Shown in pieces: positions 9,878 through 49,481 of a DNA stretch of 54,094 bases (position 1 is the stretch's first letter; each line of letters opens with the position of its first letter). Source of the DNA: Alphaproteobacteria bacterium. GTDB taxonomy: Bacteria; Pseudomonadota; Alphaproteobacteria; Sphingomonadales; Sphingomonadaceae. The position numbers were made by a program, and so were the translations under genes. The stretch covers positions 1 to 54,094 of the forward strand of contig JAUIJI010000003.1 of assembly GCA_030431435.1 (NCBI GenBank), read 5' to 3'. The notes below the pieces were generated by a model that ran no database searches, was not told where the DNA came from, and saw only the letters and a program-made list of their open reading frames with translations.

Positions 9878-10672
9878 TCAGTTCAGCGGATGGCTGGACC
9901 CGAAGAACAAGGCCTGGCTGATTGCAGCACGCACTGTATCTTCCTGGAAAGGCTTGGTGATGAGATAGGTAGGCTCTTGCCGGTCCCCGGTAAGCAATCG
10001 CTCGGGATATGCCGTGATGAAGATCACCGGCACTGTGGCATTCTCGAGGATATCGTCCACCGCATCGAGGCCGCTGGAACCGTCTGCCAGCTGGATATCG
10101 GCGAGCACCAGCCCCGGCGTCTTTTCAGCCACCACTTCCTGCGCCTGCGTGCGCGTGGCAGCCGTTCCGCAAATCTCGTGGCCGAGCGAGCGGACGAGGT
10201 CCTCAAGCTGCATCGAGATGAGCGGCTCGTCCTCGATGATGAGTACACTGGTGGAGCTTTCTTTCTCGATCTCGGCAACGGCTTCGCGAACCAGCGAATC
10301 CACGTCATCAGCCGGGACGCCCATGATCTCGGCAGCTTCATCAGAGGTGAAATCCTCAACCGTTGTCAGCAGCAGGGCCTGCCTGTTGAGCGGCGTGACC
10401 TTACCCAGCTGGTCCTGCGCGCCAGCCTCGTGAGGAGAGGTAAGCGATGGCACCCCGGCCACTTCAAGGTGGGCACTGGCCCACAGCTTGTTGAACGCGG
10501 CATAAAGCGGCACGCGGCCACCGCGCAGGCTTTCAGCCACGCCCTCATCGCTGAGGGCTGCTTCCAGCGTCTGCTTTACAAAGGCATCGCCGCTGGCCTG
10601 CGATCCGGTAAGCGCGCGGGCATAGCGGCGGAGATATGGAAGATGGGCGGCGACTTCGGCACCGATTGACAT
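9878..10672 (-). CDS. phyR: PhyR, general stress response anti-anti-sigma response regulator
   Basis: 264 residues. The N-terminal part (about 1-135) is the sigma-like domain that mimics EcfG: a sigma2-like helix set (HLPYLRRYARALTG) and a sigma4-like helix-turn-helix (FTSDEAAEIMGVPADDV). The C-terminal part (about 141-258) is a receiver domain with acidic pocket IIEDEP, phosphoacceptor Asp 192 (ADIQLADG), switch Thr in FITAYPE and Lys in TKPF. Phosphorylated PhyR binds NepR and frees EcfG. In many relatives phyR sits beside nepR-ecfG, but here they are about 39 kb apart. ATG 10672 has an AAGGGAAA ribosome site; a perfect EcfG-type promoter lies 34 bases upstream of it, so the gene is likely auto-activated. 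Confidence 0.95.
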   Translation of the reverse strand: MSIGAEVAAHLPYLRRYARALTGSQASGDAFVKQTLEAALSDEGVAESLRGGRVPLYAAFNKLWASAHLEVAGVPSLTSPHEAGAQDQLGKVTPLNRQALLLTTVEDFTSDEAAEIMGVPADDVDSLVREAVAEIEKESSTSVLIIEDEPLISMQLEDLVRSLGHEICGTAATRTQAQEVVAEKTPGLVLADIQLADGSSGLDAVDDILENATVPVIFITAYPERLLTGDRQEPTYLITKPFQEDTVRAAISQALFFGSSHPLN

Positions 10673-10705: not shown

Positions 10706-10730
10706 AACGCGGTTGTTCGCGACCGGTTCC
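10706..10730 (-). promoter_or_regulatory. EcfG-type promoter of phyR
   Basis: On the minus strand it reads GGAAC, a 16-base spacer, then CGTT, an exact match to the EcfG consensus. It ends 34 bases before the phyR ATG, a normal distance for a transcription start in the leader. A nearby plus-strand GGAAC at 10743 has no matching -10 element. Confidence 0.85.
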
Positions 10731-10853
10731 TGAACTCTCGCAGGAACCGCAACCTCGCCGCCAGCAAAGACAGGGCTCGCGGTGAATAGCAAGTCCCGAT
10801 CTGGCAGTTCCTGGCGCTTTGGCTGGTGGCCGGAAAAATTTTTTCAGAGCGCC

Positions 10854-10878
10854 GGAACCGAATTTTAGGAGGGACGTT
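10854..10878 (+). promoter_or_regulatory. EcfG-type promoter of a non-coding transcript
   Basis: GGAAC (10854-10858), 16-base spacer, CGTT (10875-10878) on the plus strand. No plus-strand gene lies downstream; instead there are two hairpins, the second a strong terminator. The predicted start is near 10884-10889. Confidence 0.8.
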
Positions 10879-10885
10879 TTCTTCT

Positions 10886-10970
10886 TGTCACCGCCGACAC
10901 CCCCTCCCGTCCAAACGGTGGTGACACGATCCCGAAGGCCCCCCGCTCGCCGACCGAGCGGGGGGCTTTT
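10886..10970 (+). ncRNA. Candidate EcfG-dependent small RNA, GsrN-like
   Basis: A roughly 85-nt transcript is predicted between an EcfG promoter (10854-10878) and an intrinsic terminator (10938-10970). Its 5' hairpin pairs 10887-10896 with 10916-10925 (10 bp, one G-U) and displays a 19-base loop rich in C (CCCCCTCCC in the middle), complementary to GGGAGG-like Shine-Dalgarno sequences. The second hairpin is a perfect 12-bp stem with T residues. There is no ORF with a ribosome site in it. Known precedent: GsrN of Caulobacter is an sRNA under the EcfG-family sigma factor SigT and uses a C-rich loop to bind targets such as katG mRNA. Homology to GsrN is inferred from architecture only, not sequence identity. 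The 5' end is estimated. Confidence 0.72.
10938..10970 (+). terminator. Intrinsic terminator of the small RNA
   Basis: GCCCCCCGCTCG (10938-10949) pairs perfectly with 10955-10966 across a 5-base loop and is followed by TTTT then AATTT. On the minus strand the hairpin is not followed by T residues, so it is directed at plus-strand transcription, where no protein gene lies upstream. Confidence 0.88.
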
Positions 10971-10989
10971 AATTTCGGTCAGGAAAAAC

Positions 10990-11421
10990 TCAGCGCAAAG
11001 CGCCTTTCAGACGCGCGATCAACCCGGTTTTTTTCTGGTTGAGCAGGACATCAGCCAGTTGGCCCGGGTCGTAGGGTTTCTCGAAAACGCAGCCCATGCT
11101 TCTTACGGCCATGGGAATGGAATCCGGTGACCCGGTGGAAAAGGCAATGCGTGGACGGCGTGGGCCGAGCAGGCTGGCAAGTTCCGCCAGCGCCCAGCCA
11201 TCATCACGATCAGCAAGGTGGACATCGAGGATCAGGGCATCGGGGCACATTTTGTCGAGCTGGGCCATCGCATCGGCCATTCGCGTCACGATCTCCACCT
11301 GACCGGCACCGGCATCGATCAACGCAGCTTCGAGCGCAAGACCGAGGATCGCATCATCCTCGACCACCAGCACGCGCGGACCGCGTACCCTGGCCGCCTT
11401 GTCTTTCTTCATCAGTGCCAT
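10990..11421 (-). CDS. Single-domain response regulator, SdrG-like candidate
   Basis: 143 residues, a receiver domain with no output domain. Acidic pocket VVEDDA (19-24), phosphoacceptor Asp 66 (LILDVHLAD), FSTGSPD as the switch-Thr loop, and Lys in FEKPYD are all present, so it should be phosphorylatable. The FSTG loop is close to the FATG motif of single-domain regulators that act in the sphingomonad GSR phosphorelay (for example SdrG), which suggests the same role. An exact EcfG promoter (11462-11486) lies 41 bases upstream of ATG 11421; an in-frame start at 11493 is excluded because it would lie upstream of that promoter. It sits beside phyR and the small RNA. Confidence 0.8.
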   Translation of the reverse strand: MALMKKDKAARVRGPRVLVVEDDAILGLALEAALIDAGAGQVEIVTRMADAMAQLDKMCPDALILDVHLADRDDGWALAELASLLGPRRPRIAFSTGSPDSIPMAVRSMGCVFEKPYDPGQLADVLLNQKKTGLIARLKGALR

Positions 11422-11461: not shown

Positions 11462-11486
11462 AACGCGGAAGCGCCCCTGATGTTCC
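11462..11486 (-). promoter_or_regulatory. EcfG-type promoter of the single-domain response regulator
   Basis: Minus-strand GGAAC, 16-base spacer, CGTT, an exact consensus match 41 bases before ATG 11421 and immediately after the stop of the upstream GNAT-like gene. It decides the start codon of the regulator. Confidence 0.85.
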
Positions 11487-49143: not shown

Positions 49144-49168
49144 GGAACCGGATCGCTGCTGTTTCGTT
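49144..49168 (+). promoter_or_regulatory. EcfG-type promoter of nepR-ecfG
   Basis: GGAAC (49144-49148), 16-base spacer, CGTT (49165-49168), an exact match. The transcription start is predicted near 49177, about 105 bases before nepR, so EcfG would drive its own operon. It overlaps a minus-strand promoter at 49146-49170. Confidence 0.85.
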
Positions 49169-49283: not shown

Positions 49284-49481
49284 ATGACCGATCAAGGAAA
49301 GACCGGAGGCGCCGCAAAACCGGCTGGCGCTGCCAGCAAGGGCGCGGGAGTCGCAGCGAAGGCTGGCGAAAAGCCGGACTGGGCCGATGGCCTGAAGCAG
49401 TTCTACGACTCCGTTGTCGATGAACCCCTGCCTGACGAGTTGAGCGAACTGCTCGCCCGCTTTGACGAAGACGAGGCCTGA
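49284..49481 (+). CDS. nepR: NepR, anti-sigma factor of EcfG
   Basis: 65 residues. The NepR core reads GLKQFYDSVVDEPLPDELSELLARFDED (two helices that grip the sigma factor), after an Ala/Gly/Lys-rich disordered N-terminus. NepR holds EcfG inactive until phosphorylated PhyR binds it. Its stop overlaps the ecfG ATG by one base, so both are made together. There is no clear ribosome site before ATG 49284, so it may be weakly translated. An EcfG promoter lies 116 bases upstream. phyR is elsewhere in the window. Confidence 0.95.
   Translation: MTDQGKTGGAAKPAGAASKGAGVAAKAGEKPDWADGLKQFYDSVVDEPLPDELSELLARFDEDEA

Follow-up and report, generated by a model that had tools for sequence, protein, structure and literature searches.

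We think it probable that a short stretch of DNA beside phyR in a sphingomonad genome encodes a free-standing small RNA of about 85-90 nt, which would be driven by the stress sigma factor EcfG and would act in trans through a C-rich loop. The sequence, structure, conservation, promoter architecture and synteny of this RNA are established here, from a 54-kb window (the whole stretch of DNA that was analysed) of contig JAUIJI010000003.1 in assembly GCA_030431435.1, assigned by GTDB to Sphingomonadaceae; all coordinates are window positions. The gene, at 10854-10970 on the plus strand, comprises a promoter, a hairpin with a C-rich loop and a terminator, and has phyR, divergent, on one side and a receiver gene, convergent, on the other:

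9878-10672, minus strand: phyR, anti-anti-sigma response regulator (Pfam: PhyR sigma-like and receiver domains), divergent from the small RNA
10706-10730, minus strand: EcfG-type phyR promoter, GGAAC-N16-CGTT (motif scan)
10854-10878, plus strand: EcfG-type promoter of the small RNA, with GGAAC at 10854-10858, 16 nt, and CGTT at 10875-10878 (sequence; near the hairpin in relatives too)
10886-10926, plus strand: 5' hairpin of the small RNA, 11 bp, stem 10886-10896/10916-10926 (fold, pair counts)
10897-10915, plus strand: 19-nt loop with CCCCCTCCCGTCCAA, holding the anti-Shine-Dalgarno word CCUCC (fold, alignment)
10927-10936, plus strand: conserved linker CGATCCCGAA (alignment; mean information content 1.65 bits)
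10938-10970, plus strand: intrinsic terminator of the small RNA, core 10938-10949/10955-10966, followed by TTTTAATTT (sequence, fold, pair counts, T run)
10990-11421, minus strand: receiver-only response regulator gene (Pfam), convergent with the small RNA
11462-11486, minus strand: GGAAC-N16-CGTT upstream of the receiver gene (motif scan)
49144-49168, plus strand: GGAAC-N16-CGTT upstream of nepR (motif scan)
49374-49475, plus strand: NepR domain (domain search)

An earlier, sequence-only reading of this region had proposed an exact EcfG promoter, a 19-base C-rich loop and a 12-bp terminator aimed only along the plus strand, and all three hold: the promoter is there letter for letter, the fold returns exactly the loop bounds listed above, and the 12-pair terminator core (16 pairs in the MFE structure) has its T tail on the plus strand, with no T run after the stem on the minus strand. 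The hairpin had been given 10 bp, and here the hairpin stands while its length becomes 11 pairs. The RNA as a whole folds with an MFE of -50.8 kcal/mol (z -7.0), a value that none of 200 shuffles equalled, and its terminator does not figure in the output of a simple terminator scan. Transcription, going by the promoter, probably starts near 10884-10887. The 19-nt loop is the presumed pairing region, and the linker is a possible second pairing or chaperone site.

The setting of the gene is that of the general stress response. GGAAC-N16-CGTT occurs four times in the 54-kb window, once ahead of each of the small RNA, phyR, the receiver gene and nepR, and when the spacing was changed to 14, 15, 17, 18 or 19 the only CGTT sites were one overlapping pair at N19. 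The receiver-only gene has an exact EcfG-type site of its own, and the window therefore has four EcfG-type promoters on genes linked to the general stress response. Among relatives, phyR lies divergent and upstream of the small RNA in all 89 loci (L001-L090 less L089, a chance match), and a GNAT-like gene, mostly together with the receiver gene, is convergent downstream in 86 of the 89, the other three (L028, L085 and L088) being at contig ends.

How widely the element is carried was asked with a DNA search and with a covariance model, R1, built on an alignment (A1) of 83 of 90 loci. From this alignment L089 was dropped as a chance match and L066, L085 and L088 for an unusable T tail or a contig end, L020, L022 and L061 were kept out for their length, and L047, L051, L056 (start too far upstream) and L076 (3' end short) were retained. 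By DNA search, 130 of 298 Sphingomonadaceae genomes (GTDB) matched at E 0.01, weak partial matches included; R1 found the element in 121 of the 298, from 40 of 96 genera, with 118 scoring at least 69 bits and the remainder consisting of two matches cut by contig ends (G263 and G270) and one of 29 bits (G288) that is probably chance. Second matches within a family genome were weak (at most 34 bits). The four full-strength matches among 385 genomes of the class all fall in Sphingomonadaceae, those of 24-30 bits in nine other class genomes are taken as chance, and R1 found nothing in 12 genomes from other families of the order. Within the genus the small RNA is present in 18 of 19 genomes; 14 of these loci were new to the model, and in the 13 where the script could place the element phyR is always divergent and upstream, with a -10 box of CATT in 11 and CGTT in two. 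The named carriers, among the matches listed (80 of 119 stretches), come from genera of Erythrobacteraceae and from Novosphingobium; they include Erythrobacter, Qipengyuania, Altererythrobacter, Porphyrobacter, Croceicoccus, Pontixanthobacter, Tsuneonella, Citromicrobium and Novosphingobium itself.

The earlier suggestion of a sphingomonad counterpart of a known stress RNA thus survives as a conserved RNA at the general stress locus and fails in its pan-sphingomonad reach, because 26 phyR loci from 24 genera of the same family without an R1 match lack an R1-type element even with filters off (best E 0.07, 17 bits). Some of these 26 loci may instead hold an unrelated analogue. A quick PhyR tree built on 89 carriers and 26 non-carriers (115 rows) has a branch, with support 99, that sets all carriers apart from the rest, a result that, given midpoint rooting and long outgroup branches, is compatible with one gain or with other histories outside the sampled rows. 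Two drafts deserve mention in their own right. G685, of the same genus and 98% complete, has no match for the small RNA, NepR or PhyR, so that the general stress core seems to have been lost in this one draft genome; G681, 87% complete, has the small RNA and PhyR and no NepR match.

The promoter is conserved in relatives, mostly with another -10 box than in the window copy. It lay outside the R1 model and was read in 157 distinct loci, identical ones being counted once (some species may occur in both genome sets), all of which have GGAAC before the small RNA, with C[AG]TT at N16-17 in 143. The -10 box is CATT in 129 of the 157 and CGTT in 14, and it is unplaced or another tetramer in 14 more, which include L056 and L076, where the script misplaced the hairpin start. 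The CGTT of the window copy is thus unlike most carriers. On the facing side, C[AG]TT sites at N16-17 directed at phyR occur in 83 of the 157 loci and are CGTT in every one, the other 74 having no such site within the 400 bases examined; a wider phyR-facing pattern, duplicates kept, gave 97 CGTT, 5 GATT, 5 GGTT and 0 CATT, and CGTT is also the -10 box of the nepR promoter in all 17 same-genus loci. Across 19 same-genus genomes the strict word GGGAACC-N15-CGTT is not outstanding genome-wide, because its 30 sites compare with 26 in the reversed control.

The simplest reading, as judged from promoter sequence, is that EcfG would control the small RNA through a conserved non-consensus -10 box. In Sphingopyxis granuli, CATT is reported among the commonest non-consensus EcfG -10 boxes, and the mltA2 promoter, which has it, was seen to be transcribed in vitro; changing this CATT to CGTT raises transcription, and the reverse change in another promoter lowers it (PMC7083833). 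On this account a larger pool of free EcfG may be required for the small RNA of most carriers than for the CGTT core genes, because CATT lowers EcfG transcription in Sphingopyxis. A CATT box does not have to make a promoter weak, however, since some promoters with non-consensus -10 boxes are described in that species as out-transcribing others with CGTT (PMC7083833). In most carriers the CATT box could also be the mark of a different sigma factor, one that reads GGAAC and prefers CATT, in which case the small RNA is real and the CGTT copies represent a shift to EcfG. We consider this unlikely. It draws on the split between the small RNA loci and the phyR-facing sites (CATT in 129 of 157 versus 0 of 83) and on the rarity of GGGAACC-N15-CATT, with 25 sites versus 4 in the reversed control in the 19 same-genus genomes, of which 11 are the small RNA promoter itself; it has to contend with the in vitro use of CATT as an EcfG -10 box in Sphingopyxis granuli (PMC7083833), with the location of the small RNA at phyR, and with the joint absence of small RNA, phyR and nepR from G685.

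If control by EcfG is accepted, the natural comparison is with GsrN, whose transcription is sigma-dependent and which is cleaved to a stable 5' isoform. GsrN (CCNA_R0081) is described in Caulobacter crescentus as a sigma-T RNA of about 100 nt, whose 5' loop holds six cytosines and is proposed to bind G-rich stretches of mRNA; katG mRNA is recovered along with GsrN on purification (PMC5869019). The likenesses are considerable: a promoter for the general stress sigma factor, a C-rich 5' loop that has tandem cytosines and is the most conserved part of the RNA, and a position near ecfG-nepR-phyR, which is typical of predicted GsrN homologs (PMC5869019). Of the traits of the GsrN family, the promoter GGAAC-N15-17-CGTT is exact in the window copy and mostly CATT in its relatives, and the exposed 5' loop with about six cytosines is present in the fold as a C-run of 5-8. 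There are also differences, in that R1 has no full-strength match outside Sphingomonadaceae among the 385 class genomes (the comparison with GsrN being one of features, not of alignment), the loop here continues UCCCGUCCAA and holds CCUCC, and nothing in the loop predictions points to katG as a target. To us the small RNA looks like an independent counterpart of GsrN, alike in plan, and we do not place it within the GsrN sequence family. According to a figure legend of the GsrN paper, Erythrobacter litoralis has no apparent gsrN-like gene (PMC5869019); other Erythrobacter species, among the matches listed, do carry the small RNA described here, and the published remark merits a second look.

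Rfam offers no closer relative: the window copy reached no family threshold, and ten relatives' loci gave no gathering match. The best weak match, at 28.9 bits against a gathering value of 58.8, was RF02344 (ar14), which we take to be the family of NfeR1, and the second, at 26.1 bits against 50, was RF01521, the Caulobacter CC1840 sRNA; both arose with the window copy alone and not with eight relatives' loci, in searches of unequal sensitivity (146 bases with laxer filters for the former, 29 kb searched jointly with E up to 1 for the latter). Like ar14, this RNA has a hairpin with a CUCCUCCC-type loop and then a terminator hairpin, although the Rfam consensus of ar14 has C-rich words in both hairpin loops and this RNA in one; with CC1840 it shares the C-rich 5' loop. 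SmelA075 and SmelA099 of Rhizobiales likewise present an anti-Shine-Dalgarno loop motif on hairpins with varying stems, and they are described with three and four hairpins, each with CCUCCUCCC, against one hairpin here with a longer C-run and UCCCGUCCAA (PMC3927594). The alpha-r8 RNAs (SisA-D) also combine a conserved anti-Shine-Dalgarno seed with a terminator, but their seed, UUUCCUCCCU, is single-stranded and downstream of a weak hairpin, whereas the C-rich word here is inside a hairpin loop; their usual neighbour is a putative N-formylglutamate amidohydrolase gene, in place of phyR and the receiver and GNAT-like genes, and a common promoter motif is given as absent from SisA-D (PMC12559287). 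Seed position and neighbours both place our RNA outside alpha-r8.

The mechanism we have in mind would begin with PhyR releasing EcfG from NepR under general stress, upon which EcfG holoenzyme would transcribe an RNA of about 85-90 nt made up of a 5' hairpin showing the near-invariant loop C5-8 UCCCGUCCAA, the conserved linker and a Rho-independent terminator. The loop would then pair in trans with G-rich or Shine-Dalgarno-like mRNA leaders, lowering, or raising, the translation of chosen mRNAs; GsrN, for its part, raises the translation of katG. Pairing in trans with mRNAs is likely by analogy, because the plan is that of GsrN and because the loop includes CCUCC, complementary to the core Shine-Dalgarno sequence, as do the loops of SmelA075/SmelA099 and the seed of alpha-r8. 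A rather different idea is that of a sponge, in which the C-rich loop would titrate a G-rich small RNA, or the RNA a protein, instead of binding mRNAs, and this we find quite improbable. In its favour, the loop is more constant than a single mRNA partner would require, and the Caulobacter RNA sponge CrfA is reported to pair with anti-Shine-Dalgarno small RNAs (PMC12559287), but in our case the sponge would be on the C-rich side, the opposite of CrfA.

Returning to pairing with mRNAs, target prediction with the loop, proposed earlier as a check, gave no preference for katG leaders: by analogy with GsrN we had a ready candidate, and in one of 19 same-genus leaders only did the true loop beat 95% of shuffled loops, with a median rank of 0.46. 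GACGGGAGG-N-ATG occurs at 18 sites versus 16 in the reversed control across 12 genomes, and GGGAGGGG-N-ATG at 306 versus 55, an enrichment that is expected of any Shine-Dalgarno-like word and is confounded by dispersed palindromes as well. Candidate genes with GGGAGGGG-ATG were followed in five sampled genomes (G014, 33 of 34 places; G690, 15 of 15; G213, 17 of 18; G103, 24 of 31; G689, 11 of 33), and among the 71 open-frame sites of 100 stretches none recurred in at least three of the five, the only clusters being four that are each found in two genomes. Arms of a CCTCCCGC-nn-GCGGGAGG palindrome account for 13 of the 71 sites. As a side observation, REP-like palindromes of the form CCTCCCGC-nn-GCGGGAGGGG before possible start codons supply GGGAGGGG words complementary to the loop (L408, L410, L413-L415, L419, L422-L424 and L426 in G103; L383 in G690; L396 and L405 in G213), and in G691 the exact word GGGAGGGGATCATG occurs 12 times, probably as a mobile or dispersed repeat.

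Conservation is strongest where pairing would take place. The loop core TCCCGTCCAA is unchanged in 154 of the 157 distinct loci, the sides of the hairpin stem average 1.8 and 1.63 bits of information and the terminator arms 1.16 and 1.39, and a T run of at least 4 follows the terminator in 147 of 154 loci. In the alignment 96.2% of pair cells are paired, with changes on both sides in 9 of 17 pairs; the terminator helix supplies most of this covariation (7 of 8 pairs of helix 2), the hairpin helix 1 showing both-side changes in 2 of 9 pairs only and one-sided variation in five more. Five of five covariation measures lie above all 500 shuffles and six slid versions, with the qualification that kinship among sequences can beat shuffles without structure and that the slid control is biased towards a structure that came out of the alignment being tested. 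Together with the R1 matches, these figures are the outcome of the covariance search proposed earlier as a check: loop and stem are conserved in relatives.

The same figures weigh on the idea that the element is a mere terminator or insulator that separates phyR from the convergent gene, or an antisense 3' region of the latter. It does lie between convergent transcripts, and its terminator stem is symmetrical, but the loop (mean 1.85 bits) and hairpin are conserved far above the loop of the terminator (0.42), the flank ahead of the promoter (0.29) and the downstream flank (0.01), the promoter keeps a near-constant spacing, and the plus strand alone has a T tail, all of which makes this very improbable indeed. 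We give hardly any credence to a small protein gene, which has for it only a mechanical TTG ORF overlapping the RNA (103 aa, 10819-11130, plus strand) and against it the paired changes in the stems, the lack in the ORF list of any plus-strand ORF of at least 40 aa starting inside the RNA, and a C-run of 5, 6, 7 or 8 bases (in 7, 75, 69 and 6 of the 157 distinct loci) that breaks any frame across relatives. The claim that no ORF follows the promoter was literally wrong, then, and right in substance, since a C-run shifting by single bases leaves no conserved protein frame and the mechanical ORF begins upstream of the promoter.

Small RNAs with C-rich loops driven by the general stress response are a known kind, and the post-transcriptional arm of this response in alphaproteobacteria is best known from Caulobacter GsrN; as far as could be found, the phyR-linked RNA is unreported in its group, no earlier account having come up in the open literature on general stress response, sphingomonad and anti-Shine-Dalgarno small RNAs (subscription papers were largely outside its scope). 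A separate phyR-linked family in 40 of 96 sampled genera suggests that joining the PhyR-EcfG switch to a C-rich-loop RNA is a recurring design. In a bolder version, tentative and on the whole doubtful, this distinct RNA family would have had one origin, early in the Erythrobacteraceae-Novosphingobium group at about its base, and would have joined phyR, nepR and ecfG as the fourth fixed member of the general stress core; its loop would serve as a broad anti-Shine-Dalgarno brake on translation, and CATT would be held so that the brake engages only at strong EcfG release. If true, this would build into the promoter a threshold between mild and severe stress, an idea made less probable by the Sphingopyxis promoters whose non-consensus -10 boxes out-transcribe CGTT. 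That the -10 boxes differ in a conserved way, mostly CATT for the RNA versus CGTT for the facing phyR, makes promoter tuning within one stress regulon directly testable. A minor observation concerns the shape of the locus itself: in 16 of the 89 loci phyR lies about 1 kb from the small RNA, and in the four of these that were examined (L022, L025, L030 and L081) a gene for a Crp/Fnr-type regulator, judged by eye, stands between the two on the small RNA strand.
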